A DNA stretch of 29,714 nucleotides from a virus, in IMG/VR virus record IMGVR_UViG_3300049893_000851, positions 1-29,714 of that record. One strand, given 5' to 3'. This document shows, in pieces, positions 10,260 through 28,481 of the stretch. The notes under the pieces were generated by a model that was not told where the DNA came from, searched no databases, and saw only the letters and a list, made by a program, of their open reading frames with translations. The position numbers were made by a program, and so were the translations under genes. How positions within the stretch are numbered: the first letter of the stretch is position 1; every line of letters starts with the position of its first letter.

Positions 10260-10625
10260 TTAATTTAACCTAAAATAATATTTTAAAGCCTTTTTAACTA
10301 AATCGTGGTATGTTTTTGAATTACACTTGGAACATAGTATCTTTAAATTTGCATAAGAATACTCCCCACCAATACATTTAGGAATAATATGCTCTAGTGT
10401 CAAATTCTCTCGCGAACCGCAATTAGCACAGCAATTTCCATCTCTCTCAATAATCTTATTCCTCCAATATTTATCCTTATTAAAGGATGGACACTTTTTT
10501 TTGGCCAACCTAACTCTTTCTGGGTATCTTTCTTTATATTTTTTTACATAAATTCTACTCTTCAGCTTTTTTGCTTGTATTCTTTCCTCGTCTGTAAAAT
10601 ATTTTTTGTTATATCTATTTCCCAT
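10260..10625 (-). CDS. HNH endonuclease
   Basis: Protein of 121 residues. A basic, Lys/Arg-rich N-terminal half (about 1-55) probably contacts DNA. The second half is a compact HNH nuclease: CCANCGS (about 66-72), then LTLEHIIPKCIGGEYSYANL with the HIIP histidine, and LCSKCNSK near the C-terminus. The two CxxC pairs should bind a structural zinc and the His/Asn residues coordinate the catalytic metal. The gene sits between the intact major capsid gene and the adaptor gene, and is not part of the virion set, which fits a mobile free-standing endonuclease. A packaging-linked HNH protein is an alternative, but those normally lie beside the terminase genes. Confidence 0.85.
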   Translation of the reverse strand: MGNRYNKKYFTDEERIQAKKLKSRIYVKKYKERYPERVRLAKKKCPSFNKDKYWRNKIIERDGNCCANCGSRENLTLEHIIPKCIGGEYSYANLKILCSKCNSKTYHDLVKKALKYYFRLN

Positions 10626-10679: not shown

Positions 10680-11762
10680 CTAAGCAGTGAAAGCTGACTC
10701 AACTCGGATGATTCTTGGAGCACCCAAGGTATCATTAAATCGAGTGACACCTAATGAAACTTTACCACCAATTGAGCTGTAAAGGTTCAAAGCGTTGTTA
10801 GAGTCTGCAGTTGTAGTTAGAATTGCAGTTGGCTCTTGGAAATACCCCCAACCGAATGAATCCTGACCGATAACGGTAGTAGGAATCACAGAGACAGTTG
10901 AGTTAAAGTAATTCTGCCAAGCAGTTTCAAGATAACGTACACCTCGGAAACCACCTAGTTTACCAAGTTTCAAGTCTTCTACGTTAGTGTATCGTCCAAC
11001 ATCAATGTAAGCACCAGTTGAGGTGTTTGACATCAAGTCAGAAGCGACAGCAGGATGAATGATTGCAGTGTAATAACCACCAAAATCTTTCAAACCAGCG
11101 GCGTTTGACGAACGGAGATAAGATACAGCTTTAACCATATCAGCTTGGGTAATTAAATCACCAGCAGCGATTGAAGTTCTAGCTGTTCTAGCACCTGAAT
11201 AAATAATACCGTTTGAGCCAGCATTGACCACGGTTTGGATAGCCGTATCAACCATTCTAGCTAAGGCATTTCTTACTTCCATAGTTGCATTCTGGATAAC
11301 TTCAATAGCAGAGTTTCGAACTAAAAGGTCAGAAACGGCTACCAAAATACCATACTGTGCAGGGCCGGTTGAATAAGAAGTTGCACCCCAAGTAATTGCA
11401 GTTGGGTTGCTACCTTCGGTGATTGCCGCGACACCAGATACTGAAGACACGGGGAAACCACCTTTGACGGAGTTAGGGTCACCTCCAATAATGGAAGCAC
11501 CGGCACCCCATACAGAACCTGACCCACCAATATTAGGACCGCCAACAGTCACCATTGAGACGTTAATCTTAACTGGTAATTGAGCTGGCTGTGGGAAAAT
11601 AATCCTATCAGAACCTTTAGGAGCGTCCCTTCGAGTTCCGAGTTTTGCATACTGAAGGTCTGGCTCTAGCATCCTGACCATATCAGTGATGTATCCAGTC
11701 AGAAGTTCAGACGTTTGGGTGGATGAACCACCCCAGTCACTATTTCTTACAGTTGTTGCCAT
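10680..11762 (-). CDS. Major capsid protein, N4-gp56-like
   Basis: Protein of 360 residues, close to the usual size for HK97-fold capsid proteins of the N4-gp56 family. The N-terminal segment YAKLGTRRDAPKGSDRIIFP (about 39-58) corresponds to the family's conserved block with a basic loop followed by a strand. The middle has a long helix (VIQNATMEVRNALARMVDTAIQ, about 157-178) like the HK97 spine helix, then GGYYTAIIHPAVASDLM (about 225-241), GFRGVRYLET and GWGYFQEPTAI. The C-terminal motif RFNDTLGAPRIIRVESAFTA is typical of the family. The upstream gene is scaffold-like and the downstream one an adaptor, separated only by an HNH insert. The protein forms the icosahedral shell. No frameshift or truncation is seen. 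Confidence 0.85.
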   Translation of the reverse strand: MATTVRNSDWGGSSTQTSELLTGYITDMVRMLEPDLQYAKLGTRRDAPKGSDRIIFPQPAQLPVKINVSMVTVGGPNIGGSGSVWGAGASIIGGDPNSVKGGFPVSSVSGVAAITEGSNPTAITWGATSYSTGPAQYGILVAVSDLLVRNSAIEVIQNATMEVRNALARMVDTAIQTVVNAGSNGIIYSGARTARTSIAAGDLITQADMVKAVSYLRSSNAAGLKDFGGYYTAIIHPAVASDLMSNTSTGAYIDVGRYTNVEDLKLGKLGGFRGVRYLETAWQNYFNSTVSVIPTTVIGQDSFGWGYFQEPTAILTTTADSNNALNLYSSIGGKVSLGVTRFNDTLGAPRIIRVESAFTA

Positions 11763-13958: not shown

Positions 13959-14384
13959 TTAGTATTCAGCGATTAAGATACTTGTGGCAGTTGTGCCAGC
14001 GTTTATGACAGCGAGACGATTGTATAAACCATTAACGCTACCAGCTTGACCAACAGGCTGACCGGCCGTCTCTTTAGGAACGACAAATCTTCTATAATTT
14101 GATGGTGGCACATAGTGGTCATAATTAGCACCAGCACCAGAAGCAACAACTGAAGCTTTTGCACCAGCCGCAGCCGCCGTTTCAGTATTTGGAACCCATC
14201 TAATAACCGCACCTTGACCACCAAAAGCACCAACCTCTAAAGTGGTTGTGTCTGGGTGCAAGGTAATAACTGACGAAGCAACTTGGTTCTCTGAGGTGAT
14301 TCTATTTACTGCTTTAAAAGGAGCAGGAAAATTTTGCATTGGTTCACCGCCAGTATCTCTAGGTAAATTTTTTGCGTAGTTCAT
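13959..14384 (-). CDS. Probable capsid decoration protein
   Basis: Protein of 141 residues, beta-rich, with Ala, Gly, Val and Thr abundant and no Cys. It has an N-terminal arm (about 1-25), strands such as ASSVITLHPDTTTLEVGAFG (about 36-55) and VIRWVPNTET, and a C-terminal strand ITNAGTTATSIL-like segment ending LIAEY. The size and place, directly after the portal gene and before the capsid group, match small head decoration or auxiliary head proteins. The start is one base within the portal stop region. Family membership was not proven. Confidence 0.5.
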   Translation of the reverse strand: MNYAKNLPRDTGGEPMQNFPAPFKAVNRITSENQVASSVITLHPDTTTLEVGAFGGQGAVIRWVPNTETAAAAGAKASVVASGAGANYDHYVPPSNYRRFVVPKETAGQPVGQAGSVNGLYNRLAVINAGTTATSILIAEY

Positions 14385-16282
14385 TATTTGTTAAAATTAT
14401 TACTTTTATTATTTCTTTTAATTTCTGTTTTAAGTGGACTTGCCTGGGATATTGGATTCGACCTTTCGGCTCCAACCTTAGGCTTTTTGTCTATCATACC
14501 ACCCATCTCTTGCTGTTGAGTAATCATTTGCTGTTTTTTCTGTTCAGCCAACAGTTTTTCGTGCCAGTCAATATGTACCCACGTCTGCCAGGTCTTAGGT
14601 TGGACCATCATATGAGTATATAAGTGGGTTGTATGCTCGTCAGTTTCTAATACATCAGGCATAGTTCCTTTGCTTAATAGTTCGTTTTCCCCTTCAGCAT
14701 CTATTTCATCTAAAGTTTTTGGTAGCATAACATCTATTGTGGCTGGGTCATCTACCATTAAGGGGAAGAAAACGTGCTTTTGGAAGTTTCTCATACCATC
14801 AGGGTCAAGGGTTTGCGAAAGAGCGGGATATAATTGCATCCAATCCCTTCGTTTAACAAGATTCTTATACTCAGCTTCCTTAGCAGAATATACTGAAACG
14901 CCAGGAGGAAAATCAGCCTTAAAGTCTTCTAGGCTTATTATTTTTGAATCCACACCCTTAATTCCTATAATATTAGCAGTTTTCTCTTTTAATTCCTTAG
15001 CATTTTTAGCATAACGATGGAACCAGTGAGACCAGAATTCCGCTTCACCAAATTGCATTACTTTGCCTTGTAAAGAAGAAGCCATATCGTTTAATTGCTG
15101 GTCAATAGCAGCTTGAGTGGCTGTACCAGATGCTTGAGTTGCTGTAGATTGCATTGGACGACCAGCACCCATAGGCTCTTGTGCTTCAGCATCTAGGTAT
15201 TGAATAAATGCTTGTAGGTCTGGTGACATAGAGGATGATTTAGCCAGTGGCCAAGCGGCAGTTTCGTCATCCATTGGAATATGCTGATTGATTTGGCGGT
15301 TTAGGAATTGAGAAACATCCCTTACTTTATCAGGATTATAACCATACAAAGGATTAGCAGTATCTTTAGCGGCGATATAACATAGGTTTAACAATACACT
15401 TTTAGCTCGATGTTTATCTTCGAGTAGGTCCGCTACCGATATAGGTAATGATGAGTGTGGCATTCTAAAGGCTTCCTTGACGACAATAGGCCACTTACAG
15501 TCTCGAGAAACGCTAGCCCCATCTGGCAAAATAATCTCCTCGCCATCCATTAAATCTAACTTCTTTTGATAAATTATTTTACTAAAATTCTTATCCACCC
15601 AAAACACGGTCTTAAAATTAGAATCATCATAACCATAGAACTCAAGTATTTGATATACATCACCACCATAAGATTCCATTGATGGTGCAACACCTTCTCG
15701 TGCTTGGTCTCTCTTAACTTTGTAATCCCATAAATAAGGGTCAACACCAGAGGCTAATTCTCCAACCTTCACTTTTAATAATCCAGCCTTTTCTAATTTT
15801 AATAAATCTTGTTTGGATTTGGTAATCCACTTCCAATAATATCTCCAGTCTTGCACCGCATCAAAATAAGGGTCATAACCAAAGTTCAGAGGATTTATAA
15901 CGTGTGGTTGCAATATCTTCTTCTTCATATCAAAACGGATAGTTTCCATGTAGCCACGACCAAAGAATAGTGTATCCCAACACCAGTCATAATCTAACTT
16001 AGCCTTGCCCATTTCTTGATAGTCTGATTGAGCTAAAAGATTATAAGAATTGATTTGATTTTGGTCTATGCCTTGTGAAGGAAGGAATTTAACTTGAATA
16101 CGGTCGTCATAAATAGAAGACATTACTCGGTCAAATAAAGTAAGCATTAAAGTTGAAGCGATATTCTGGTCGCCTCTACGCATATTGGAAAGTAAAACTA
16201 ACTGATTAGCTTGACGTTTTTTACGAGCTTGTAAAAATTCAAATGATTCTTGATACCTAGATTGTATTTGAGCAGCATTCAT
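14384..16282 (-). CDS. Portal protein
   Basis: Protein of 632 residues placed directly after the large terminase region, as is usual. The N-terminal part is helical and rich in Gln/Arg. The middle has the portal pattern DYDWCWDTLFFGRGYMETIR (about 98-117), followed by VINPLNFGYDPYFD, where the chain describes the clip/wing region. The segment AEAQEPMGAGRPMQ (about 370-383) and the helix ATQAAIDQQLNDMASSLQGK after it resemble the crown-side helices of podovirus-type portals. The C-terminus (about 590-632) is Gln/Lys-rich, MITQQQEMGGMID. It forms the dodecameric channel of the packaging motor. It starts with an ATGA overlap with the 139-residue gene upstream. Confidence 0.8.
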   Translation of the reverse strand: MNAAQIQSRYQESFEFLQARKKRQANQLVLLSNMRRGDQNIASTLMLTLFDRVMSSIYDDRIQVKFLPSQGIDQNQINSYNLLAQSDYQEMGKAKLDYDWCWDTLFFGRGYMETIRFDMKKKILQPHVINPLNFGYDPYFDAVQDWRYYWKWITKSKQDLLKLEKAGLLKVKVGELASGVDPYLWDYKVKRDQAREGVAPSMESYGGDVYQILEFYGYDDSNFKTVFWVDKNFSKIIYQKKLDLMDGEEIILPDGASVSRDCKWPIVVKEAFRMPHSSLPISVADLLEDKHRAKSVLLNLCYIAAKDTANPLYGYNPDKVRDVSQFLNRQINQHIPMDDETAAWPLAKSSSMSPDLQAFIQYLDAEAQEPMGAGRPMQSTATQASGTATQAAIDQQLNDMASSLQGKVMQFGEAEFWSHWFHRYAKNAKELKEKTANIIGIKGVDSKIISLEDFKADFPPGVSVYSAKEAEYKNLVKRRDWMQLYPALSQTLDPDGMRNFQKHVFFPLMVDDPATIDVMLPKTLDEIDAEGENELLSKGTMPDVLETDEHTTHLYTHMMVQPKTWQTWVHIDWHEKLLAEQKKQQMITQQQEMGGMIDKKPKVGAERSNPISQASPLKTEIKRNNKSNNFNK

Positions 16283-16698
16283 TTTATTTTAAATAATTCT
16301 TCTAATGTTTTACTTTTATCAACAATAGCATTGCCCAAGCTTGGAATGCACGATACCACAAAACGATAATGACTTTTATCTTTAGCGAACAAAATCCTTG
16401 GTTCTATTGCTTCACAAGGAACCAAACCATCGTTCCAAAGCATTGCATCCATACCCATACGATGAGAATTAAATAATTCTTGAGCCGTTGGGGTGTGGTT
16501 TTTAAATGCTTCCTTATTAACAGCAAAATCAAAAAATCTTATAACTATTGGTTGGCCGGTTCCTTTATCCTCCTGTATTTTAGTAGTTGATTCGGCACCT
16601 AATTCCTCACCTTCCCACTCAATATCTTTAACTGGAGCATCCTTTGCGTCCTTTTCAATAACTTTAAACTTCTTTTCTTTAGAATTATCCTTGTTCAT
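16279..16698 (-). CDS. Small protein between terminase and portal genes, unknown function
   Basis: Protein of 139 residues from the ATG at 16698 (MNKDNSKEKKFKVIEKD). An upstream ATG at 16767 would extend it, but then it would overlap the terminase end by 83 bases, so the shorter start is preferred (14-base overlap). The N-terminal 45 residues are charged and probably flexible. The rest has a compact fold with VIRFFDFAVNKEAF (about 51-64) and RMGMDAMLWNDGLVPCEAIE (about 81-100) and HYRFVVSCIPSLG near the end. I do not recognise it. The gene ends in an ATGA overlap with the portal gene, so it is expressed with packaging and head genes. Confidence 0.65.
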   Translation of the reverse strand: MNKDNSKEKKFKVIEKDAKDAPVKDIEWEGEELGAESTTKIQEDKGTGQPIVIRFFDFAVNKEAFKNHTPTAQELFNSHRMGMDAMLWNDGLVPCEAIEPRILFAKDKSHYRFVVSCIPSLGNAIVDKSKTLEELFKIK

Positions 16699-18049
16699 AA
16701 ATTTGTTCCATTTTATCAAAGAATTTACCTCCTTGATGTTTATAAACTGCATTATTGCGTATAGCACTATCAGGAATTACCATTGTCAAGACAGAGGCAT
16801 CAACACAATTAGGTGATGGAATACCATCTTTAAATAGTTCTTCTTTAGGCTGAATACTAATTTTACCATCTTTATGCTTATATTTTACATACTCAAACTC
16901 GTTCCAACCGTGATTTTGTAATAATTTACCACCAGATAATAACCATTTTCTTTCTTTCCAGTGAAGTTCGGCCTTTAAATTACTAAACATTTCGCTTTCT
17001 GACTTTTCTCCAAATGAAACTCCTCTAACTGGTAATCCCATATCTCTTAGCCTATCAAATACTCCTTGGCCAACACCAGTCTTGTCAACAACAATCATAT
17101 CAATCAAACAACGGTGATATATCTCTTGAATAATACCGACCAAATCCATAGTGTTTTCTAATTTTTGGTTAAATACTATTTCTTGTAAGTTTCCGGATTT
17201 TACCACAATAGCTGATTTGTCACCTCCGGCGGCTGGGTCCACACCCATAATCAAATATCCAGCGTGTTTAGCATCTGGTGTAAATGTTGATTGTAATTCC
17301 CTATCATTTACCAATCTAATATAACCTTTTACATCCATAGAATCAGTAAAGGAATCCCAATTACCCTCTAAGAATGCCTTGCGTTCAGCTTCGGGTAGTG
17401 ATTCAAGTGATTTATAATACGAGGCATCTAGGAATGGGTTATCAGTTGGTAAAGCTGGCACATAGACAAATTCATATTGTTCACTTTCTTCTGGTGGAAA
17501 GATACGTTTAACAAACATATTCTTTACCCACACTTCACCCACTGGATTGCAAGCACATAAAAACTTTACATCTTTGATACCAGCCCAGCGTAAACGTTTT
17601 CTTAATTCTCTAAACGTAGTGACAGGATTTCTATTTATTTCATCCACACCTTCAATAGCAAATTCGACTGACAAATACTTCTCTGGGTCGTCTAGGTTAC
17701 GGAAGACAATAACACCTGACCCATATTCAGGTGCAAGTGTAAACTCGTGCTTAGCTTCATTATATGTTCCTAACCACGCTGGAAATTCATATTTAACTTT
17801 GGATAGGTGTCGGTCGTTTAATGATGGATAGTCTTCACAGAATAGTCCAGCTCTAATTCCTTTTAGTTGATACTTAGCCCAGAACTCCATTAGCCAATAA
17901 ACCATCATCCATCTTAACCAATATGATTTACCAGAGCCTAGTGAGCCTCCATAGAGAACAAATTTAAATCTACGAGATGCTTTGGCCGCCTCTAATTGCT
18001 TAGGGAGAAAGTGGGCTAGGTCTGTGAAATTAATTTCTTCATCTTTCAT
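16685..18049 (-). CDS. terL: Terminase large subunit (packaging ATPase/nuclease)
   Basis: Protein of 454 residues with both halves of TerL. The N-terminal ATPase has Walker A GGSLGSGKS (about 34-42), Walker B ending in AIEGVDE (about 131-137) and the coupling motif ACNPV (about 166-170). The C-terminal RNase-H-like nuclease has GVDPAAGGDKSAIVV (Asp271), IVVDKTGVGQG (Asp322) and PNCVDASVL (Asp417), which together supply the metal-binding acidic residues. It pumps DNA into the procapsid through the portal and cuts it. It overlaps terS by ATGA and is followed by a small protein and the portal gene. All motifs appear intact. Confidence 0.95.
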   Translation of the reverse strand: MKDEEINFTDLAHFLPKQLEAAKASRRFKFVLYGGSLGSGKSYWLRWMMVYWLMEFWAKYQLKGIRAGLFCEDYPSLNDRHLSKVKYEFPAWLGTYNEAKHEFTLAPEYGSGVIVFRNLDDPEKYLSVEFAIEGVDEINRNPVTTFRELRKRLRWAGIKDVKFLCACNPVGEVWVKNMFVKRIFPPEESEQYEFVYVPALPTDNPFLDASYYKSLESLPEAERKAFLEGNWDSFTDSMDVKGYIRLVNDRELQSTFTPDAKHAGYLIMGVDPAAGGDKSAIVVKSGNLQEIVFNQKLENTMDLVGIIQEIYHRCLIDMIVVDKTGVGQGVFDRLRDMGLPVRGVSFGEKSESEMFSNLKAELHWKERKWLLSGGKLLQNHGWNEFEYVKYKHKDGKISIQPKEELFKDGIPSPNCVDASVLTMVIPDSAIRNNAVYKHQGGKFFDKMEQIYEQG

Positions 18050-18397: not shown

Positions 18398-19840
18398 TTA
18401 GAATTCTACTTTATCTTTCTTCTCTCTCTTAGGCACTACTATACCTCCTAAAGTTAGTAATCCGTGGGCGATTGAAATTGCACTCTCTAAAGCAGTTATT
18501 ACTACATCAGTCGGGTCAAAGGTATTTTCATCTAGGTATTTAGCACCATTTGCTTCTAATTGCTTTCTTGGGGCTTGTAGGGCGTGATTTAATAGTTCAG
18601 ATGAGGTCTTGATGTTCATTAAACTCTTACCCGCTCCTTCTACAACACCACCTTTAAAAGCTATTTGAGTTGAATTGACTGCGTTTTCTACCTTTGTTTT
18701 TATGCCTTTTTGTTCGTTCTCTGTGTAAGCTCCGACCTTTATTACTGCGATGCCTCCACTTAATACTGCTATTCTCTTGGTTAGTTTGTCCTTTTCAAAG
18801 TTATTTGTACTTGATTCTAGTTGGTTTTTTAGGGTTTGAATATAGTCTTTAGTCTTTCCTTGTCCACCTAAAATAATTGTTTTATCCTTTGTTGATTTAA
18901 TAATATCACAACTGCCCCAGTCACTTACCTTGACATCTTTTAAATTAAGTAGCTTATCATCAACAACTTTTGCGTCTACAATGCAAGCAATGTCCTGTAA
19001 GTTCTCTAATCTATCTCCATATCCGGGTGTTTCAATCAAGAGTGGGCGGAATATACCTTGCATTCGATAGCCTAAACACTTGATTATTACATCCTCACCA
19101 AAGCCTTCTGCTATGATTACAATGTCCTTTAGTCCTTGATTAACTATGTCCTTTAGAATAATGGCTATTTCATTGAATAAATTGATTTTTTTATTCACTA
19201 AAAGAATAGCTGGGCTTTCCAATACAACTTTGTCCTCTTGATTTACAAGATAAGGGGAAGCATAGCCTTTTGGAATCTCTAGTCCGCTTACTACTTCAAC
19301 ACTTGTGTCTGTTCCCTTTGAATCTTCTACTGATAGCACTCCATCTTTTCCTATTGTGTAAATAGTATCAGCTATCAATTTAGCTATTGTTTCATTGTTA
19401 TAAGAGTTATGAGCAATAGCGTAGAGTTCATCCTTAGTCTTAATCTTGCGTGAAGCCTTTGAAATGGCCTTTACAGCCTCATTTAGACCCTTTTTAAGAG
19501 ATAGAGCCATACCATGATAATCCGTGTCGCTAAAGTCATTTTTGAGGTCTTTAAAGGCTTCTAGGATGATGTTCCCCATTATTAAACCAGCAGTAGTAGT
19601 TCCGTCCTTACCTTTCTGGGTGGTTTCCTTGATGTATTGTATAACAGCATTCTCTAACTCATTCTCTATTTCAAATGCTTGGGACGAGCGTTTACCATCA
19701 TCCACGGCTTCGTGAGTAAATTCATTGGCAACTATTAAAATCTTTTTACCGGCTGGACCATAAGTGGGAGCGATAAACTCCACATACTTTTTGACGGCTG
19801 ATAAAATAATCTCTTGTGGTTTGCTACTTGTGAGTTTCAT
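18398..19840 (-). CDS. groEL: Phage-encoded GroEL-type chaperonin with an altered catalytic residue
   Basis: Protein of 480 residues, against about 548 in E. coli GroEL, with no C-terminal GGM tail. The equatorial domain has YGPAGKKILI (about 27-36), AVDDG (Asp48, matching GroEL Asp52) and GKDGTTTA (Asp79, matching Asp87). The apical domain is present (KGYASPYLVNQEDK, ESPAILLVNKKI, and the ETPGYGDRLENLQDIA block). RIAVLSGGIAVIKVGAYTENE, GGVVEGAGKSL and FDPTDVVITALESAISIAHG follow. At residue 386 an Asn (in KVENAVNSTQ) takes the place of GroEL Asp398 ([10 protein letters not shown]-type segment), the residue needed for rapid ATP hydrolysis. No GroES gene is visible in the window. It probably helps fold capsid, tail or glycosylated virion proteins, as phage chaperonins such as that of phage EL do for their own products. 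It is one base from terS. Confidence 0.95.
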   Translation of the reverse strand: MKLTSSKPQEIILSAVKKYVEFIAPTYGPAGKKILIVANEFTHEAVDDGKRSSQAFEIENELENAVIQYIKETTQKGKDGTTTAGLIMGNIILEAFKDLKNDFSDTDYHGMALSLKKGLNEAVKAISKASRKIKTKDELYAIAHNSYNNETIAKLIADTIYTIGKDGVLSVEDSKGTDTSVEVVSGLEIPKGYASPYLVNQEDKVVLESPAILLVNKKINLFNEIAIILKDIVNQGLKDIVIIAEGFGEDVIIKCLGYRMQGIFRPLLIETPGYGDRLENLQDIACIVDAKVVDDKLLNLKDVKVSDWGSCDIIKSTKDKTIILGGQGKTKDYIQTLKNQLESSTNNFEKDKLTKRIAVLSGGIAVIKVGAYTENEQKGIKTKVENAVNSTQIAFKGGVVEGAGKSLMNIKTSSELLNHALQAPRKQLEANGAKYLDENTFDPTDVVITALESAISIAHGLLTLGGIVVPKREKKDKVEF

Positions 19841-19841
19841 A

Positions 19842-20048
19842 TTATTTTAATCTTAAATATAGTTGTTTAAATACTGCTAATAATCCCTCTTCTATAAAGA
19901 CATCGTGTATCATTTGAGTTATTGGCATTGAGCATAATGGGCATCTTGTGGATACAGGGTCATCTTCGTAAGAAGATACCTCTTCCCATTCTTCGTTACA
20001 CTGCTCGCAATTATATTTGGCTGACCAATTTCCTTCTTTACTTTTCAT
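19842..20048 (-). CDS. Small zinc-ribbon protein
   Basis: Protein of 68 residues with two CxxC pairs, CEQC (about 14-17) and CPLC (about 36-39), joined by an acidic linker and followed by a hydrophobic helix (DVFIEEGLLAVFKQLYLRL). This is the pattern of a small zinc ribbon, loosely like FmdB-type regulatory proteins. It lies between the exostosin-like gene (11-base overlap) and the chaperonin (1 base). It might be a co-factor of the chaperonin or a regulator; neither is shown. Confidence 0.75.
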   Translation of the reverse strand: MKSKEGNWSAKYNCEQCNEEWEEVSSYEDDPVSTRCPLCSMPITQMIHDVFIEEGLLAVFKQLYLRLK

Positions 20049-20988
20049 ATTGTTTAATTATATTTTTAAAAATTAAGTTTAAATCTAATTTAGACAAGTC
20101 CATAGTCTGTGCCTCTTGAAATAGGTGGTCCGAGTCCTCTAATAGTTTTTGTGTAATATCTGACCATTGCTCTACAAATAATACAGGAAAACCTTTCATT
20201 AGGCAAGTGAAATATGGTGTTCGTTTCATTACTGGCACACGTCTCATATATAATAATTCCCAATTTCGGTGACAGTCCATTCCGTGTCCTTCAGGGCAGA
20301 CCATAAACTTGTGGTCTCGCATTTCGTTTAAGAACTCTCGGTAATAATCATAAGTAAAATACATTGAATCCTCATTAAATCGTGTTGTGACCCACGGCAA
20401 TCCTTGAAAATCGACCAAAGGTTGCCTATCAGGATTCCTGCCTATGCCACAGTTAATGTAAAGAAGTTTGGTTGGCTTTATTTCTTTTCCTATTTCCTCC
20501 TTTAAGATTTGAATACGGTTATCTATTGGATTATTAGGGCGATTGATTACTCTTTGAACACCATAAGGAAATGGGTGTATCTTTCCACCAAAGTGTTTAG
20601 CGTTCACAGCATATATTCCTAATACATTATCAGGTATTTCAATCTGGTCATCGATTGGTGTGTCTTCGTGTGAGCAGAAGATTAAGAATTTGTTATTTGG
20701 AAGTTTTCTACATAGTCCAAGTAAATCATTATTCGTCATCAACCAAATCAAATAGGCTTCATCTTCCTTCTTGGCTAAGATATTTCTAGGATACAAACGG
20801 ATATTATCTATGAACAAGGTCATCACTTTCCCTTCAAACTCTTTACACTTATCAAAGAATTCTTGATTATCTTTATTGGCCATTTTCATAAAACCACCAA
20901 TTAAAATATCTGGTTCTTGACCTCCTAAGTGGTCTCCAAAGGAGTAGTCGCAAAGGTTTGATAGTTTGGTTCCTTCAATTACTTCCAT
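20038..20988 (-). CDS. Exostosin-like glycosyltransferase (GT47-type fold)
   Basis: Protein of 316 residues. The C-terminal half carries the exostosin-like signature FMVCPEGHGMDCHRNWELLY (about 228-247) followed by VPVMKRTPYF, a Ser/Gly-Glu-Gly-x-D-x-H-R-x-WE pattern that forms the nucleotide-sugar site in GT-B enzymes of this type. An N-terminal Rossmann-like half contains DILIGGFMKM and KVMTLFIDNIRL. Homologous enzymes in bacteria and large viruses add sugars such as GlcNAc, GlcA or Gal; the donor here is unknown. No signal peptide or transmembrane segment, so it acts in the cytosol. It is the last transferase of the cassette and overlaps the GT17 gene by 10 bases. Confidence 0.75.
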   Translation of the reverse strand: MEVIEGTKLSNLCDYSFGDHLGGQEPDILIGGFMKMANKDNQEFFDKCKEFEGKVMTLFIDNIRLYPRNILAKKEDEAYLIWLMTNNDLLGLCRKLPNNKFLIFCSHEDTPIDDQIEIPDNVLGIYAVNAKHFGGKIHPFPYGVQRVINRPNNPIDNRIQILKEEIGKEIKPTKLLYINCGIGRNPDRQPLVDFQGLPWVTTRFNEDSMYFTYDYYREFLNEMRDHKFMVCPEGHGMDCHRNWELLYMRRVPVMKRTPYFTCLMKGFPVLFVEQWSDITQKLLEDSDHLFQEAQTMDLSKLDLNLIFKNIIKQYEK

Positions 20989-21731
20989 AACTTTTTATAT
21001 TTATCTTTATTTTCTAATAGATAGTGAGGCAATTCTTTTTCATCCGTCCACATCTTAAAAGGCTTACCTTGCCAGTCATTACTTCGTCCTAAATAATCCT
21101 CGCCGTTCTCTATACGGGCTTTCATTCCATCCCTTACCCAATCACAATTTACTTCATTACAATGGTCATAAGATTCTATTTTTTTAAGTATCTGGTCTAG
21201 TCCTCCAATATTAGTAAAGTGCCAACCACCATCGGGGAGTTCGTTGGTATGATTTGCCCGCCAGTAATTTACAGAGTTAGTTTTAAAAATCTTCCACTTA
21301 CCTACCACAGTTCCCACCCACGCTTCACTAGAACGATTATTAAGATAATAGGAATAATTAAGTTGTTGTAAATTATAAACCTTATCATCAGTTATCTCCT
21401 GGGGTTTCCAAATTTCATCTAGGTCACCAAAATAAATTATATCATCGTCTTTAGCATAATCTAATAATCTGGTTCTGATATAATCCTTTTGATAACCAGC
21501 CCTAGCGAATGGGTCATCTGTTTCTATTAATTGTGGAGTGATATAAATAATTTTATCTTTCCATTTTTTAAATCTATCTACATTTTCTAAGAAATTAAGT
21601 AGTTTTCTCTGGCCAGAGAATGTTTCTGACCCCTCACATATAACAAAATAATCAACATACTGGTCAAGAATATTCAGCCTGATTTCCAGTAAGTCCAATT
21701 CATTCCAAAAACAAAAAGTATCGTAAATCAT
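20979..21731 (-). CDS. GT17-family glycosyltransferase
   Basis: Protein of 250 residues from the ATG at 21731, chosen because it overlaps the upstream stop as ATGA; an ATG at 21788 is possible but overlaps more. It opens MIYDTFCFWNELDLLEIRLN, the typical start of GT17 proteins (beta-1,4-mannosyl-glycoprotein N-acetylglucosaminyltransferase-like), followed by YVDYFVICEGSETFSG. The metal-binding DxD is GDLDEIW (about 102-108). Further family features are AGYQKDYIRTRLLD and a GWHFTNIGG block (about 173-181). In eukaryotes GT17 adds the bisecting GlcNAc; in microbes and viruses the acceptor is unknown. No signal or membrane segment, so it acts in the cytosol. Confidence 0.8.
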   Translation of the reverse strand: MIYDTFCFWNELDLLEIRLNILDQYVDYFVICEGSETFSGQRKLLNFLENVDRFKKWKDKIIYITPQLIETDDPFARAGYQKDYIRTRLLDYAKDDDIIYFGDLDEIWKPQEITDDKVYNLQQLNYSYYLNNRSSEAWVGTVVGKWKIFKTNSVNYWRANHTNELPDGGWHFTNIGGLDQILKKIESYDHCNEVNCDWVRDGMKARIENGEDYLGRSNDWQGKPFKMWTDEKELPHYLLENKDKYKKLWK

Positions 21732-22354
21732 TTCCACATTAAAAAATAACTTCTTTCCGCACATTGAGCTTCGACTGGCTCTCGGCAATAAGGTAAAGTT
21801 TCAGCCATTTTAATATAATAATCTTTGGCGTATTTGTGAACATCTTGTTTTGTTAAAATATAATTTCCACCAGGAGCAAAAGGAATATATGAGACGGCTG
21901 GCAGATAAAAATGATGACACCATTCGTTAAACGTTTTAACATACTTAGATGGAAATTCATTAAAAAACCAGTTGTCATTACGTTCGTGATACATACCAGC
22001 CGAGTAGTAATTTACAATCCCATTATTATCAGAATATGTTTTATGATTTTGAGTGAGTAATGGCGTAAATTCTTTATTATCTTTTACCCTATCGTATTCT
22101 TCGGGAGTGATGTATTTAAACATATTAGTTTTTCCCCACAAGAAAACATCTGGTAGATTGTCATAGTTATATATCAAGTAGCATAATTTATCATAGTCCA
22201 CTTGGCCAAGATTAGGAGTCTTGATAATTTTTGCTTGGTCAAATTCAGTTAAATGGTCTATGCCGTCATCTGACCTATCGTAAATAAGATAGTCATCACC
22301 TATCCACGACTTATCAGGTGTAAAATTATAATTAACTAATATCTTTTTCATCAT
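21728..22354 (-). CDS. DUF3431-like protein, possible glycosyltransferase
   Basis: Protein of 208 residues (MMKKILVNYNFTPDKSWIGD). LPDVFLWGKTNMFKYITPEE (about 67-86) and the C-terminal part with FAPGGNYILTKQDVHKYAKD and PVEAQCAERSYFLMW resemble the DUF3431 family, which occurs in bacterial and fungal glycan clusters and is probably a glycosyltransferase. No DxD is certain. The start overlaps the end of the fucosyltransferase-like gene by about 20 bases, and the stop overlaps the GT17 start as ATGA. It belongs to the cassette; activity is inferred. Confidence 0.6.
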   Translation of the reverse strand: MMKKILVNYNFTPDKSWIGDDYLIYDRSDDGIDHLTEFDQAKIIKTPNLGQVDYDKLCYLIYNYDNLPDVFLWGKTNMFKYITPEEYDRVKDNKEFTPLLTQNHKTYSDNNGIVNYYSAGMYHERNDNWFFNEFPSKYVKTFNEWCHHFYLPAVSYIPFAPGGNYILTKQDVHKYAKDYYIKMAETLPYCREPVEAQCAERSYFLMWK

Positions 22355-23069
22355 GATGTATATAAGTGAACTTGCTATAAGTTGCGTTATCAGGGTTAAT
22401 CCATTCTTTTGTATTGTATCTAGCCCAATACTTTGGGCATATCACTTTCTTTACGTTCTCATTCATATAGGCTGGTAAGATATTAAAACTACTATTTGAA
22501 AGAATGAGGTATTTGGCATAGCGAATAGAACGCCAATTTAAACCAGCATCGTGGATACATTTAAAGTCAGGAAAGAATTTTTTTGCTTCTTCTTCATCGT
22601 CAGTATGGACTTCAAATTTCATATTTGGATTTTCCTCTTTCATCATTTTAATCGCCAGATTCCAGTATTCTTTTGGTAAAAACAATTCAGGAAATACCTT
22701 ATACTCTCCACCTCGGAAATTAATCACACACAAATCATCTGGCATTTCAAGAGGTTCAGTCGGCAACCACTTCCTTACTTTATCTATTATCGGAAAGAAA
22801 ATCCTTTCGTTCTGTGATTCATTATCTAAAATACAATCACCCGCCATAAACATACCGCTAGGGACAACCTTTCCAGTTCCATACTCTACTGCATAGTCGT
22901 GATATTCCTCGCCCATTTCAGCCTTGATAAAATCTTTAGCCTTAAAAAGTTCAGGAGCAATAACACCAAATCTACATCCCTTAGCATAAGCCAACGCCCG
23001 ACAAGCCACATAACGATGGAGTTGATTACCTATTCCCGACCCAGCGTGCATTATTGATAATATTGTCAT
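22332..23069 (-). CDS. Fucosyltransferase-like glycosyltransferase (GT11-like)
   Basis: Protein of 245 residues from the ATG at 23069, chosen for its ATGA overlap with the upstream stop; an ATG at 23084 would add five residues. The start MTILSIMHAGSGIGNQLHRY has the G-GNQ(L/M) motif of GT11-like fucosyltransferases. The GDP-sugar block is VINFRGGEY (about 115-123), close to HxRRGDY but with Gly for the second Arg and no His. The late motif LSNSSFNILPAYMNENVKKV (about 190-209) is the NSSFSWWAA-like strand. It therefore has the GT-B fucosyltransferase fold, but the altered donor motif may mean another sugar or a different linkage. It lies between the DUF5672 and DUF3431 genes. Confidence 0.65.
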   Translation of the reverse strand: MTILSIMHAGSGIGNQLHRYVACRALAYAKGCRFGVIAPELFKAKDFIKAEMGEEYHDYAVEYGTGKVVPSGMFMAGDCILDNESQNERIFFPIIDKVRKWLPTEPLEMPDDLCVINFRGGEYKVFPELFLPKEYWNLAIKMMKEENPNMKFEVHTDDEEEAKKFFPDFKCIHDAGLNWRSIRYAKYLILSNSSFNILPAYMNENVKKVICPKYWARYNTKEWINPDNATYSKFTYIHHDEKDIS

Positions 23070-23644
23070 AGTGAATGAAAGCAAAAAGTTGATAAACCTG
23101 CGTTCTCTGGTAAATTATGTTCTTTGGAAAAATGTAATGCTTGTTCAAAAGTCGCAAATTTACATCCTTTAGATTCTAACCATTTACGATTCCAGCAACA
23201 TATCTGTCCATCTTCGTTATTATTACCATAATGAAATTCCATTGGGCGAGTAGCAACTAAGTCCATCAGTTTTTTACTACGGAGCGATACAGAATTTCCG
23301 ACACGTTGTAACTCACCTTCTTCATCTCGGTAAGAATAAGTATCTTGTGGTAATGGCCACGGAGCCCCAATAAAGTCTAGCTCTAACCATTTAGTATTCC
23401 ATAGTTCAGGATGAACCACATGGCCATCTTGATGGATTATTAAAGCGTGAGAGGTATCTATATATTTAGGAAGTTCCTTAATCATCTTCTCATTCCACTT
23501 TTCAATAGAATTACACTTTTCATCCCAGATGATTTTAGCTCCACCAAATTCTATATCTTTGCACGACAAATCCATTGCCTTTTTAGCACCTTCAAAATCA
23601 CGATTTGTGAGTAATATAATTGTGACTTCAGGAATTTTTAGCAT
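23066..23644 (-). CDS. DUF5672 family protein, probable glycosyltransferase
   Basis: Protein of 192 residues from the ATG at 23644 (MLKIPEVTIILLTNRDF); an ATG at 23665 gives a 38-base overlap with the upstream gene and is less likely. ALIIHQDGHVVHP (about 68-80), LDFIGAPWPLP (about 90-100), VGNSVSLRSKKLMDL (about 115-129), NNEDGQICCW and FEQALHFSKEHNL are the ordered motifs of DUF5672, a GT-A-like family found in glycan gene clusters; HQDGH sits where the DxD-like metal motif occurs. The donor and acceptor are unknown. It overlaps the DegT gene by 17 bases and the next gene as ATGA. Confidence 0.75.
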   Translation of the reverse strand: MLKIPEVTIILLTNRDFEGAKKAMDLSCKDIEFGGAKIIWDEKCNSIEKWNEKMIKELPKYIDTSHALIIHQDGHVVHPELWNTKWLELDFIGAPWPLPQDTYSYRDEEGELQRVGNSVSLRSKKLMDLVATRPMEFHYGNNNEDGQICCWNRKWLESKGCKFATFEQALHFSKEHNLPENAGLSTFCFHSL

Positions 23645-24812
23645 AATATTTATCAAATAATCCAATTATATAATCTAGGTCAGATTTAGTTAGACGAGGA
23701 TGGACAGTAATCCAAAAGGAATGTTCAAGAATATAATTAGCCTCTAATAAATCACCGTCTATCCTATAAATAGATTTTTCATAGGCTGGATGATTGGTTA
23801 TTACGCCAGCAAACATACTCCTTGTTTCAACTCCGTGTTTTTCAAGGAAAGAAACAAGCGGTTCTCGTTCACCAGTCACGGTTAAAGGAAAAGCAAACCA
23901 ACACACATCAGCTCCCTTAACTGAAACAGGTAAAATTAATTCTTTATACTTTGCTAGGTTTTTATATAAATAGTCAAAGTTCTTCTTCCTTAATTTCTTA
24001 ATCTTTTTAGCCTTTTTTAACTGAACTCTACCCATTGCCGCTTGAAGTTCAAGAATTTGAAAGTTATATCCTATCTTGTCATACACAAATCTAGGATTTT
24101 GGTCTTTAGGAAGTGATTTGCAATTATGAGGTTTAGAAGCATCAGCAATTCTACCCCAGTCTCTATACTGTCTGACCTTTCCAGCTAAAACTTTACTATT
24201 AGTAAATACACCACCACCAACACCCATTGACACTATATGGGCGGCGTGAAATGAGGTGAACATAATATCACCAAAAGTTCCTAGCATTTTACCGTTAATT
24301 GATGCTCCCCAAGTGTCACAACAGTCTTCAAGCACCCAAATACCTTTATTCTTAACTACCTTCATCAAGGCTTCCATATCACAAGGATTACCTACTGGGT
24401 GAACAGCAATAATTGCTCTAGTCTTTTCTGTTATGGCTTTTTCTACTTCTTTTACATCAAAAGTGTATGAACCAATTTTAGCATCAACAACAACGGGAAC
24501 AAGATTGCACTGAAGTATAATATTAAAGATAGTCGGGAAGGTGACGGCAGAGATAATAACTTCAGAACCATTAGGAAGTTCAAGAGCAGACAAAGCAAGC
24601 AACCCAGCACAAGAACCAGAAGTAGTAAGTATTCCATATTTTAATCCGAGAGTTTTACTGGCCTCATCTTCCATTTTTTTAGCCTCTAAACCTGCTTGCC
24701 AATTTCCACTTTTAATACACTTGTGAACGGTCTTTGTAATTGCCTGTTCCTCTTTTTTATCACATACCGACCCACCATATCTACCATCAAATTTATGTTT
24801 TAATTTATCCAT
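23628..24812 (-). CDS. DegT/DnrJ/EryC1-type PLP enzyme, His in place of the catalytic Lys (3-dehydrase-like)
   Basis: Protein of 394 residues from the ATG at 24812; ATGs at 24833 and 24842 are possible. The fold follows the DegT family: GLKYGILTTSGSCAGLLAL, EVIISAVTFPTIFNII, LEDCCDTWGA (the Asp that binds the PLP pyridine) and GTFGDIMFTSFHAAHIVSMG then GVGGGVF. In aminotransferases the segment reads SFHATK, the Lys forming the PLP Schiff base; here the codon is CAT (24237-24239), a His (residue 192). Such a change is typical of sugar 3-dehydrases (RfbH, E1, ColD), which remove the C3 hydroxyl of NDP-4-keto-6-deoxyhexoses. RDWGR...YDKIGYNFQILELQAA is RfbH-like, but the cysteines for its [2Fe-2S] cluster are absent (only one Cys). 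Works next to the RmlB-like dehydratase. Confidence 0.85.
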   Translation of the reverse strand: MDKLKHKFDGRYGGSVCDKKEEQAITKTVHKCIKSGNWQAGLEAKKMEDEASKTLGLKYGILTTSGSCAGLLALSALELPNGSEVIISAVTFPTIFNIILQCNLVPVVVDAKIGSYTFDVKEVEKAITEKTRAIIAVHPVGNPCDMEALMKVVKNKGIWVLEDCCDTWGASINGKMLGTFGDIMFTSFHAAHIVSMGVGGGVFTNSKVLAGKVRQYRDWGRIADASKPHNCKSLPKDQNPRFVYDKIGYNFQILELQAAMGRVQLKKAKKIKKLRKKNFDYLYKNLAKYKELILPVSVKGADVCWFAFPLTVTGEREPLVSFLEKHGVETRSMFAGVITNHPAYEKSIYRIDGDLLEANYILEHSFWITVHPRLTKSDLDYIIGLFDKYYAKNS

Positions 24813-25816
24813 TTTGGGTTTTCTGATTGCCATTTGATACAATTTGCTAAACTTTCTTCAAAACTAACTGGCGACTTCCAACCAAGTGCCTTAATCTTAT
24901 CTGCATTGAGACCATAATGTTTATCGTGTCCGGGGCGGGTGCTATGGAAATCTACTACTTTATATTTCAGCTCCTTACCCATTAAATCAGCAATCATTTT
25001 TGCCAACTCTAGATTATCTACTTGTTTATCGCCAGCAATATGGTATCTATCGGGTTTATCTACCGTACTTGGCTTATGAATATAAGGTTTAGTATTTTTT
25101 AATAAGAAAATTAAAGCGTTAGCAAAGTTTTGAGAATGAATATAAGAGCGAGAGCCAATTCCATCTTTATCACCATGTATCGTTATCTCTTCTCCTTTGG
25201 TAATTTTCTTTTGAACAATTACTGGATATTTTGAGTCCTGTTGCATTTCTCCAAAATTATTCATTGTATTTGTTATGATGAGAGGAAGTCCAAATGCCCT
25301 CCACCAAGCAATACATATTTCTTCTTGACACGATTTTGAGGCGGCGTAAGGATTTGAAGGAATTTTTGCGTCCCATTCTTTATATCCATCATCTTTACCA
25401 GTTGTTGGTCCATAAACTTCGTCTGTTGAGATTTGGATAAATGCCTCTGGTTTAATTTCTCTGGCATATTCAACCATATTTAAAACTAAATCAATATTAT
25501 TTCTAACAAAAGGAACTGGGTTAATATTACTTGCCTCTACATCAGAAAGTGAAGCCATATTTATAATATAATCTATGTGTCCGATTTCTTTCTTAGTTAG
25601 TTCAGAAAATGGGGCAATTAAATCGTGGGTAATTACTTTAATTCTAGGAACATCATTAGGATGTCTTTCTAAGTGATTAACAATTCGGTCACACCAACCC
25701 TTATGTCTAAAGCTATCAACCGCCACCAAATCCCAATCGGTGTTTTTCATTATTTGAGACAGGGTATGGATTCCAATACTACCACCAGCACCAGTAAGTA
25801 AAACTCGTTTATTCAT
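24800..25816 (-). CDS. NAD-dependent NDP-sugar 4,6-dehydratase (RmlB-like SDR)
   Basis: Protein of 338 residues, the usual size for extended short-chain dehydrogenases. The Rossmann motif is LLTGAGGSIG (about 6-15). Catalytic residues are ISTDEVYG (Thr131-Asp132-Glu133) and YAASK (Tyr157, Lys161), giving the Thr-Asp-Glu plus Tyr/Lys set of dTDP-glucose 4,6-dehydratases. NTMNNFGEMQ and HSTRPGHDKHYGLNADKIKALGW match RmlB-type substrate-binding parts, including the RPGHD signature. It should convert an NDP-hexose to the 4-keto-6-deoxy form, the substrate of the DegT-type enzyme encoded next. The base (dTDP, CDP or GDP) is not determined. It overlaps the GT2 gene upstream by 8 bases. Confidence 0.85.
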   Translation of the reverse strand: MNKRVLLTGAGGSIGIHTLSQIMKNTDWDLVAVDSFRHKGWCDRIVNHLERHPNDVPRIKVITHDLIAPFSELTKKEIGHIDYIINMASLSDVEASNINPVPFVRNNIDLVLNMVEYAREIKPEAFIQISTDEVYGPTTGKDDGYKEWDAKIPSNPYAASKSCQEEICIAWWRAFGLPLIITNTMNNFGEMQQDSKYPVIVQKKITKGEEITIHGDKDGIGSRSYIHSQNFANALIFLLKNTKPYIHKPSTVDKPDRYHIAGDKQVDNLELAKMIADLMGKELKYKVVDFHSTRPGHDKHYGLNADKIKALGWKSPVSFEESLANCIKWQSENPKWIN

Positions 25817-26465
25817 ATTTTTTTTGCATATATTCTAATTCTAATAATTTTCTAGCTTGACCCATCGTATGCGTGGCCTGTGATGGGTGAAGGCCTATTA
25901 CTACATTCTTGTCTTTTAAAATTGTTGGTTCACCAAATAAGTCAAACATTCTCCGATAATAATCACAATCAAGCAACCAGGTCATAGTCTCATCAAACAT
26001 TAAAGGATTATTGTTTCTAATTGTTAAGACTGAAGGTCCACCAATCGTGTTATGTCCAAGGTGTATATCTTCGGAATAGTGAGGGGTATGAGGATTAAAT
26101 GTCCCCAACCCGTCATCGTGAATACAACCAGATACCAACCATTCACCGTTAAAGTGAGTCAAAATCTTCAAAAGCGAATTAGGATGAGCCAGGTAGTCAT
26201 CCATATAAAGTATTTTAATTAATTCCCCTTTAGACCTTTTGATACCTTCATTCGTGTTTTGAGCCATCCCTTTAATTGGATTTCGGTAATAAACTATACC
26301 CGTTTTGTAAAAATTACATATATCTTCTATAATATTATCATCAGAATTATCAGTGACCACAATTTCAAAGTCTTGATAAGATTGACTCCATAGTGAATCA
26401 AGACAGCGAGTAAAAAACTCTACTTTATTTTCCATATCACTGGTTGGAATACAAACGCTAATCAT
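25809..26465 (-). CDS. GT2-family glycosyltransferase
   Basis: Protein of 218 residues with a GT-A fold. MISVCIPTSD opens it, followed by DFEIVVTDNSDD (about 32-43) and ILYMDDYLA (about 85-93) as the DxD-like metal site. GCIHDDGLGTF and WLLDCDYYRRMF (about 163-174) complete the acceptor side. Donor and acceptor cannot be deduced. It has no membrane segment. The start is ATGA with the other GT2 gene upstream, and the end overlaps the dehydratase gene. Confidence 0.85.
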   Translation of the reverse strand: MISVCIPTSDMENKVEFFTRCLDSLWSQSYQDFEIVVTDNSDDNIIEDICNFYKTGIVYYRNPIKGMAQNTNEGIKRSKGELIKILYMDDYLAHPNSLLKILTHFNGEWLVSGCIHDDGLGTFNPHTPHYSEDIHLGHNTIGGPSVLTIRNNNPLMFDETMTWLLDCDYYRRMFDLFGEPTILKDKNVVIGLHPSQATHTMGQARKLLELEYMQKKYE

Positions 26466-27154
26466 TTAAAAAGTGTTGGGTGATTTTTCCTAATTTGGGT
26501 CCATAGCTCATCACTATGTTCGTTTGCCTCGTGTATCATCGACCTATCCTTTACACGATACTTAAACAAAACTTCCTGGATAATTGAAATTGTTTTACCT
26601 CGCTTAAATAAGTCAAAAGTTAAGTCATAATCTTCCCACCCCCATTTCATTTTTGGATTATACCCGCCAACTTCAATTAAAGCCTTTCTTCTTATTGCAC
26701 AACAATAAGCTATTCTGTTAGCGATTTTTAAGTCATCCATAGTAAATGCTCCTAAAATTACCTCACGGTTGCTTTTTCCAAACTCGACAAAAGATGGAGC
26801 AACAACATCGGCATTCATCGCTTGTATTTCTTGGGTAATTCTCTCAACAGCGTTTTCCATTAAAATATCATCAGCGTCTAGGAATAGAATATAATCGCCA
26901 GTAGAGGCCATTATGCCTGTATTTCTAGCCGATGGTAATCCTTTATTATTTTGAGAAATAACCTTAACTGGACTATCTATAAGTGGAAACTGTTTAAACA
27001 TATATCTTTCAGCAATTTCTTTACTATTATCGGTGCTACCATCATCCACTACAATAATCTCGTGAGCTTGCATTGTTTGATTGTAAGCACTTTCAATAGA
27101 CTCCTCAAGGTATTCAGCGTGATTATGGACTGGTATTATAATTGATATGTTCAT
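26462..27154 (-). CDS. GT2-family glycosyltransferase
   Basis: Protein of 230 residues. It has the full GT2 pattern: ISIIIPVHNHAEYLEESIES, EIIVVDDGSTDNS (about 32-44), LPSARNTGI (about 73-81), ILFLDADDILM (DADD at about 93-96) and WGWEDYDLTF (about 171-180, the ED motif of the catalytic base region). It is an inverting enzyme by family membership; the transferred sugar is unknown. The start forms an ATGA overlap with the GT6 gene upstream, and the stop does so with the next GT2 gene, so the three are probably co-translated. Confidence 0.9.
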   Translation of the reverse strand: MNISIIIPVHNHAEYLEESIESAYNQTMQAHEIIVVDDGSTDNSKEIAERYMFKQFPLIDSPVKVISQNNKGLPSARNTGIMASTGDYILFLDADDILMENAVERITQEIQAMNADVVAPSFVEFGKSNREVILGAFTMDDLKIANRIAYCCAIRRKALIEVGGYNPKMKWGWEDYDLTFDLFKRGKTISIIQEVLFKYRVKDRSMIHEANEHSDELWTQIRKNHPTLFK

Positions 27155-27954
27155 AGGTTTTTTAAAGTTCTTTCAAGATTAGCACCACCTTCTTGACTAG
27201 TTGAAAAAGGTTTAGTAAGAGTGACAAGTTTAGGCACATAATTTCTACCCCATACTTTTCTATAATAAGAGTTAATTAATGAATCAGGATATACATAAGA
27301 TGGAGACAATACTACGTCTGGTGTGTTCTCAAAACAATATCTATTCCAGTGACTCTCATCATTCCAAATAGCAATATAATTATTTTTTGCAAAATCTAAA
27401 TCAATTTTTTCCTTCATAGCCTTCATCGCTTTTATAAAAGTATCTGAACGACCGCCTTGAAAACCACCAGCATAATATAACGGTTCAAACATCTTCTTTC
27501 CCTTCTTTTCAATTATTCGTCCTGGCCTTGGTATAAAGGCTGTTGACCTGTCATTTGGTTCATAAGGAGGGATAAAATCACGTCTAGTTGCATACATTGG
27601 ATGTTGAGCAGCAACAAGTTCTCCTAAAACCTCATCACCAACTGGAGAGACAAACAACATGTCGGCATCAATATAGTATATAAAATCATAAGTTGATAGT
27701 AATTCTTCCTCTCTAAGAAATAGAGAATATCTATGAAGAGTCGGTAGAGGCCATTGAAAAGGTTCTGTTGGTATAATTTTGGCGTCTATTTTTGTGTCAC
27801 TTGGCATATCAGTCCAAGCGATAAAATCTAAATCGTGGCCTTTTAGAAAAAATTTTCTTGCTGACTCAATCATCGGTGGTAAATATTGCCAATAATTTTT
27901 ATTAAGGCATATACACACAACTGCAATTTTATATTTATTTAGATTTGCGTCCAT
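27151..27954 (-). CDS. GT6-family glycosyltransferase (histo-blood-group ABO type)
   Basis: Protein of 267 residues, the size of the catalytic domain of ABO-type enzymes, without a signal anchor. The order of family motifs is clear: FIYYIDADMLFVSPVG (DAD at 96-98, the metal-binding DxD), HPMYATRRDF, YEPNDRSTAFIP (about 131-142), LYYAGGFQGG (about 159-168) and IAIWNDESHWNRY (about 194-206; Glu200 aligns with the catalytic Glu), then VVLSPSYVYPD. GT6 enzymes add GalNAc or Gal alpha-1,3 to a Gal that in ABO substrates carries Fuc alpha-1,2. The residue triplet AGG at 162-164 corresponds to the donor-selecting site and, like Bacteroides GT6a, suggests GalNAc; this needs testing. Most bacterial GT6 have NxN here; this one has DxD as in vertebrate enzymes. 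The start overlaps the GT11 gene by 16 bases. Confidence 0.9.
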   Translation of the reverse strand: MDANLNKYKIAVVCICLNKNYWQYLPPMIESARKFFLKGHDLDFIAWTDMPSDTKIDAKIIPTEPFQWPLPTLHRYSLFLREEELLSTYDFIYYIDADMLFVSPVGDEVLGELVAAQHPMYATRRDFIPPYEPNDRSTAFIPRPGRIIEKKGKKMFEPLYYAGGFQGGRSDTFIKAMKAMKEKIDLDFAKNNYIAIWNDESHWNRYCFENTPDVVLSPSYVYPDSLINSYYRKVWGRNYVPKLVTLTKPFSTSQEGGANLERTLKNL

Positions 27955-28481
27955 TCGTTTAATAGTTTACATCTAATTTTACAATCAGTATACCACAGCT
28001 GTTCTTTTGGTGCAACTACCTTGGCACTTGAGAGATATGAAGCCCACCAAGAAAAACTAGAATTTGCCATTATAATACCTTCGCAACTAGCTAGTCCATT
28101 AAAATCCTCTAACTCTGTTTTGCCACTATAAGTTTCAATATTTGGGAATCGTGTTTTGCACCATTCCTTGTCATCACTAAATATTAAAAACTCTTTACCT
28201 GGAAATAGTGCCATTGCTCTCTCGTAATAATCCGTTTTTGAAAAATCAGTATAAAAAGGATTATTTACATAATCTCCTCGCCTAACATGAATTCCGACTC
28301 TATTAATATTTCTAATACCTTCACCAAAAATCTCTCTTAGTTCATTTCGGTATTTGTCAAAGTAGTGATAGTTTTGAACATAAGTATCTGGTATCTGTTC
28401 TTCACGGCATAAAGCGTAAAGAAATGCCCATTGAAACATTTGATTACCCAATCTACCAGTTATTTTTTCAATTTCTACCAT
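27939..28481 (-). CDS. Alpha-1,2-fucosyltransferase-like enzyme (GT11), short form
   Basis: Protein of 180 residues with the key GT11 parts: GRLGNQMFQWAF (about 9-20), VGIHVRRGDYV (about 62-72, GDP-fucose-binding HxRRGDY), FLIFSDDKEWC (about 98-108) and ANSSFSWWASYLSSAKVVAP (about 139-158). Usual GT11 enzymes have about 280-300 residues; here the segment between GNQMFQ and HVRRGDY is only about 45 residues instead of about 100. No frameshift is seen and the main motifs remain, so it may be a compact enzyme rather than a broken one. It would transfer L-fucose to galactose, the step before GT6 in A/B-antigen synthesis. It is the first transferase of the cassette, after a promoter-like TTGCTT/TATAAT pair. 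Confidence 0.85.
   Translation of the reverse strand: MVEIEKITGRLGNQMFQWAFLYALCREEQIPDTYVQNYHYFDKYRNELREIFGEGIRNINRVGIHVRRGDYVNNPFYTDFSKTDYYERAMALFPGKEFLIFSDDKEWCKTRFPNIETYSGKTELEDFNGLASCEGIIMANSSFSWWASYLSSAKVVAPKEQLWYTDCKIRCKLLNEWTQI

Follow-up and report, generated by a model that had tools for sequence, protein, structure and literature searches.

In our study, 29.7 kb of DNA from an uncultivated tailed phage, a fragment taken from a virus record and analysed at full length (the window), was found to contain two adjacent sugar-transferase genes, each belonging to a variant that sequence comparison marks as new. The first is a compact GT11 gene of a phage-only clade whose proteins, of 180–200 amino acids, are predicted to have one Rossmann domain instead of two. 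The second is a GT6 gene of a clade in which aligned active-site positions are altered. We consider it about as probable as not that the pair are working members of a phage glycan block, and that this block decorates a structural protein of the phage with a short oligosaccharide late in infection.

The compact GT11 gene (fucosyltransferase family; 27939–28481, minus strand, 180 amino acids) comes first, in the direction of transcription, among the known genes of the block. In profile searches it matched PF01531 at 1e-29 (104 bits against a cut-off of 23.9) and PHROG 2644 at 2e-29. The GT6 gene, of the family of ABO and Bacteroides ovatus GT6a (27151–27954, minus strand, 267 amino acids), matched PF03414 at 7e-26 (91.2 bits against a cut-off of 25) and PHROG 3317 at 3e-40. 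The end of the GT11 gene overlaps the start of the GT6 gene by 16 bp on the minus strand (27939–27954); the open reading frames, their shared strand and the overlap were exactly as the initial annotation had given them. The motifs that it had named were also present. The GT11 protein contained HVRRGDY at residues 65–71 (HxRRxD) and NSSFSWW at 140–146, together with SDD at 102–104, and the GT6 protein contained the metal motif DAD at 96–98, AGG within YYAGG at 160–164, and WNDES at 197–201. Both proteins fell inside their proposed families, above the Pfam cut-offs, and the assignments were backed by the PHROGs and by comparison of AlphaFold models with VIA. A chance origin of the motif and profile matches is ruled out.

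The GT11 protein matched only the second half of PF01531 (model positions 142–294 of 298). It is devoid of about 70–95 residues of the usual N-terminal half and retains the start motif GRLGNQMFQ. The spacing from the N-terminal motif to HxRRxD was bimodal in the 197 GT11 sequences that contained both motifs (a gene may count more than once, as some contigs are present twice): 34 had 55–57 residues and 163 had 86 or more. The 34 short-spacer sequences were all from phages, and their spacer compares with a median of 127 residues in all phage GT11, the compact ones included. In a tree built without the N-terminal spacer region, the compact sequences were placed on one side of one branch (SH-aLRT 88). 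A broken gene was considered and rejected, as the 34 compact sequences (a count that includes duplicates and overlapping loci) share spacing and motifs and form one clade; a split gene was rejected too, as no N-terminal half was found beside it.

The AlphaFold model of the compact GT11 protein (pLDDT 93.6, pTM 0.88) contained no strand before residue 59, followed by one Rossmann-like domain, and the two-domain GT-B architecture was absent from it. The model aligned with the C-terminal domains of FUT8 (the GDP-binding domain, residues 333–498) and of WaaC, and the best solved matches were the GDP-fucose domains of FUT8/POFUT. Human FUT8, POFUT1/2 and rhizobial NodZ resemble the compact protein in their C-terminal GDP-binding domain (Z 7–9.4), whereas they contain two domains and the compact protein one. 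As a Z of about 9 is modest, the statement on the fold also draws on the sequence family. With Foldseek and VIA, related fucosyltransferase folds were matched but no GT11 entry as such; no PDB entry for a solved GT11 structure was matched by sequence. A second GT11-like protein (22332–23084, minus strand; PHROG 2644 at 6e-7, below Pfam detection) was found in the block, in which NFRGGEY replaces HxRRxD, and it forms its own conserved family in the kin of the window.

The GT6 protein is predicted to have the GT-A fold of ABO and GT6a. In the structural comparison that the initial annotation had suggested as a check, its AlphaFold model (pLDDT 87.7, with 26 sequences in the alignment) superposed on B. 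ovatus GT6a (PDB 4AYJ; VIA Z 31.0, 1.8 Å over 221 residues) and on human ABO (Z 28.9), and alpha1,3-galactosyltransferase followed (Z 27.9). The window protein resembles GT6a and ABO in family, fold, catalytic Glu (Glu303, here E200) and His233, and Asp302 is retained as D199. The substrate-site set His233/Thr245/His301 of ABO was incomplete, with Thr245 replaced by Pro130 and His301 by Asn198. Both substitutions are typical of the window's GT6 clade, in which one outlier (L023) alone retains His301, and the clade is separate from the ABO/B. ovatus clade with 99% local support (FastTree). Thr245 is, we presume, part of the ABO acceptor site. Pro at this position was also found in some bacterial GT6 proteins encoded beside GT11, so it need not abolish function. 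His301 contacts the donor galactose in the human enzymes (PMC4692239), and its replacement by Asn makes the usual donor uncertain. The equivalents of ABO 266 and 268 are A162 and G164, Ala/Gly as in B. ovatus GT6a, whose donor-pocket YYAGG is the same. GT6a is a GalNAc enzyme (PMC3961637), and Gly at 266 or 268 was proposed as a requirement for GalNAc use (PMC4692239); GalNAc is therefore a likelier donor than Gal. GT6a contains NAN as its metal motif whereas the window protein contains DAD, and most bacterial GT6 proteins on the ABO/B. ovatus side contain NxN; DxD predicts metal dependence (PMC3961637).

Eleven genes with overlapping ends run on the minus strand from 28481 to 20038. Overlaps of 4–61 bp are present at each of the 11 junctions between GT11 and the small gene that precedes groEL, and the 16-bp overlap of GT11 and GT6 is therefore unremarkable. 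The GT6 gene is followed by two GT2 glycosyltransferase genes (26462–27154, PF00535 at 1e-38, and 25809–26465, PF00535 at 3e-14); the first follows GT6 in loci L010–L023 as well. The next gene (24800–25816; PF01370 at 9e-37) encodes a nucleotide-sugar dehydratase/epimerase that resembles dTDP-glucose 4,6-dehydratase (TIGR01181 at 3e-53, below cut-off) and not GDP-mannose 4,6-dehydratase (GMD; only 18 bits with the gmd model). It is followed by a DegT/RfbH-like sugar aminotransferase or dehydrase (23628–24842; PF01041 at 5e-82, NCBIfam RfbH at 4e-98, below cut-off), a DUF5672 protein (23066–23665; PF18922 at 3e-11), the second GT11-like protein, an uncharacterised member (21728–22354; no Pfam match, conserved in kin at 15 loci), a GT17-family glycosyltransferase (20979–21788; PF04724 at 2e-24) and a possible glycosyltransferase with weak RXYLT1_C similarity (20038–20988; PF24785 at 7e-4, below cut-off).

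Downstream of the block and on the same strand, the small gene is followed by groEL, the large terminase (16685–18049; PF04466 at 6e-9, PHROG 2 at 1e-27), an SU10-type portal (14384–16282; PF23899 at 1e-16) and the major capsid protein (10680–11762; PHROG 1357 at 8e-28), which bears out the phage context and the site beside morphogenesis genes that had been claimed. Among 50,697 phage records, none matched the portal, and the terminase had weak matches only. The block also adjoins the terminase, portal and capsid genes in eight kin identified through their terminase (L102, L103, L106, L107, L108, L115–L117). The constant GT6 neighbour in the kin is the GT2 gene, and the position of GT11 varies. 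The divergent GroEL (18398–19840, 480 amino acids; PF00118 at 3e-24), between the glycan block and the terminase, is also present in kin L010, L106, L107 and L115. Elsewhere in the window, a very glycine-rich protein of 431 amino acids (6189–7484; G+C about 52% against about 36% around it) is probably a fibre-like virion protein, and two small ORFs (532–972, plus strand, and 10260–10625, minus strand) appeared HNH-type endonuclease-like by eye, one of them on the opposite strand.

The initial annotation named a GT6 gene in cyanophage P-SSM2 and was aware of no such pair in a phage morphogenesis operon. The P-SSM2 gene is present, but a GT11 gene lies 1.5 kb before it, and in DSL-LC02 and SynMITS9220M01 the two genes are adjacent and overlapping. 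The annotated cluster of ACG-2014f contained GMD, an epimerase, GT11, two small genes and GT6. As these four cyanophages carry both genes, the pair as such has precedents in phages. Their genes lie, like those of the window, in one same-strand cluster, whereas they are large T4-like phages with full-length GT11 proteins of 263–296 amino acids. A tblastn search of the 50,697 phage records with the two proteins returned 71 and 70 records, mostly cyanophages. A scan of viral contigs with a single-protein GT6 query gave no matches; one with an alignment query gave at least 588 confirmed relatives. A previous study counted two cyanophage GT6 genes in 2014 (PMC3961637). A locus binned as Saprospiraceae (L315, 4961–13205) is phage DNA with a portal, a prohead protease and an HK97 capsid, and contained GT25-GT11-GT6-GT2-methyltransferase directly before these genes; it represents a second, unrelated phage lineage, of HK97 type, in which the genes are similarly arranged. 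In a 642-kb uncultured phage (LR756502, locus L006, 9242–20612), GT6 was found with homologues of six other block genes, which gives the impression of an exchange of the block with this huge phage. ORFs of about 555 amino acids, in which the GT6 domain is joined to another region and sometimes followed directly by GT11, were found at L221, L232, L234, L243, L250, L254, L257 and L261.

The position and enzyme content of the block, the arrangement in L315 and the lack of priming enzymes suggest virion glycosylation, for which a change of the host glycan is the main rival. The gene position points, at about even odds, to a virion protein as the target. The lipid-carrier priming enzymes PF02397 and PF00953 were not found in the window or in 12 related records of 33–44 kb, which may be incomplete (controls were positive), and no clear membrane helix was found in the block transferases. 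Mycobacteriophages have glycosylated capsids and tail tubes, according to the passages of PMC12619734 and PMC10877033 that cite Freeman et al. (2023). We infer the donors and the order of action as follows. Late in infection, soluble transferases would assemble the short oligosaccharide on a structural protein in the cytoplasm, from host nucleotide sugars and one or two modified sugars made by the dehydratase and the DegT enzyme of the block. The donor of GT11 would be a GDP-sugar, probably GDP-fucose made by the host, and GT6, with its predicted dependence on metal, would attach a sugar from a UDP-sugar in alpha linkage, GalNAc more likely than Gal. Among GT6-bearing viral loci, GT11 was found in 22/22 with GMD against 16/26 without it (p = 9e-4), which fits GDP-fucose use in the GMD-bearing loci. 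GMD is encoded, over cut-off, in ACG-2014f and DSL-LC02, whereas none above the cut-off was found in the scanned records of the window's phage family (two cyanophage controls were positive), which weighs against this reading.

The block could instead remodel a surface glycan of the host (LPS or capsule), for instance as a barrier to superinfection, and we regard this as rather improbable. In its combination of GT17, GT2, GT6 and GT11 with a dTDP-glucose-dehydratase-like and an RfbH-like enzyme, the block is similar to gene sets for LPS, and cyanophages often carry related clusters. Soluble enzymes in the cytoplasm can likewise complete glycans of the host surface, which counts against a virion target. 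However, the block was found to contain neither a priming transferase nor a clear membrane transferase, and it sits in a head-gene operon that is probably expressed late.

The initial annotation had proposed an ABO-type pathway, in which GT11 makes Fuc-alpha1,2-Gal and GT6, needing that fucose, adds GalNAc or Gal to give a blood-group A- or B-like cap. The two families are those of ABO and of E. coli O86, where the enzymes act in one pathway, and the GT6 of the window retains the His233 equivalent and YYAGG. The O86 genes belong to an O-antigen locus, whereas the window block lies beside phage head genes and no priming enzyme was found. The O86 enzymes are the GT6 WbnI and a GT11 alpha1,2-fucosyltransferase (PMC4202792), but some GT11 enzymes are alpha1,3, such as HhFT2 (PMC4202792). 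The changes of Thr245 to Pro and His301 to Asn also weigh against this pathway.

Genome comparison bears on the same question. With the order of genes randomised within same-strand runs, GT11 and GT6 were neighbours in bacterial GT6 loci 16 times in 23 runs (8 upstream, 8 downstream; 6.4 expected), a strong enrichment (p<5e-5); the adjacency p values are generous because neighbouring loci share ancestry. However, 14/39 of these bacterial loci on the ABO/B. ovatus (mostly NxN) side had the two genes adjacent against 2/41 on the window's side (p = 6e-4). Neighbouring GT11 and GT6 genes were found in many bacterial phyla (for example L304, L311, L318, L328, L329, L331, L335, L337, L345, L347, L351 and L352). 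The viral adjacency was near chance (p 0.39–0.74), and among the window's kin GT11 lay directly upstream of GT6 in 3/8, a weak excess (p = 0.03, uncorrected). All GT6-bearing records of the window's phage family (17/17) also contained GT11, and some GT11-bearing records, such as G003 and G008 of 39–41 kb, were without GT6; this is the predicted direction and agrees weakly with an ABO-like order, but 17/17 says little as GT11 is near-universal in the kin. The proposed search of viral sequences recovered the pair, and in the 59 viral loci chosen by a third gene, GT25 (near-copies removed, at least 8 kb), GT6 and GT11 were each present in about 70%, independently: 29 contained both, 13 GT6 only, 12 GT11 only and 5 neither (odds ratio 0.93, p = 1.0; contig ends may hide genes). 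Co-occurrence was therefore dropped as evidence of coupling. The inference of an ABO-like product is thus weakened, in that these comparative data do not strengthen it; the pathway is possible at a fairly low probability, and a true A-antigen-type cap, Fuc-alpha1,2-[GalNAc-alpha1,3]-Gal, is likewise possible but not probable.

More speculatively, the compact GT11 protein may be a fucosyltransferase, or another transferase of GDP-sugars, reduced to a single domain, with an acceptor site that is completed by a partner or by the virion protein; with the altered GT6 it would then equip phage particles with a blood-group-like glycan not known before. Glycosylation of modified phage DNA bases is very improbable: virus-encoded transferases with such a role are known, according to the passage of PMC12619734 that cites Pyle et al. 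(2024), but the GT6 and GT11 families act on sugars, and no gene of the thymidylate synthase/hydroxymethylase family PF00303 was found in the window or the 12 related, possibly incomplete records, with 9 controls positive.

The GT6 family, long discussed as a vertebrate and bacterial blood-group family, is abundant in phages. For a sugar transferase of the GT-B type, a one-domain GT11 protein would be uncommonly small. Both clades, that of the compact GT11 and that of the altered GT6, merit bench work; they could serve as glyco-tools, and would show how phages decorate their particles or their hosts.
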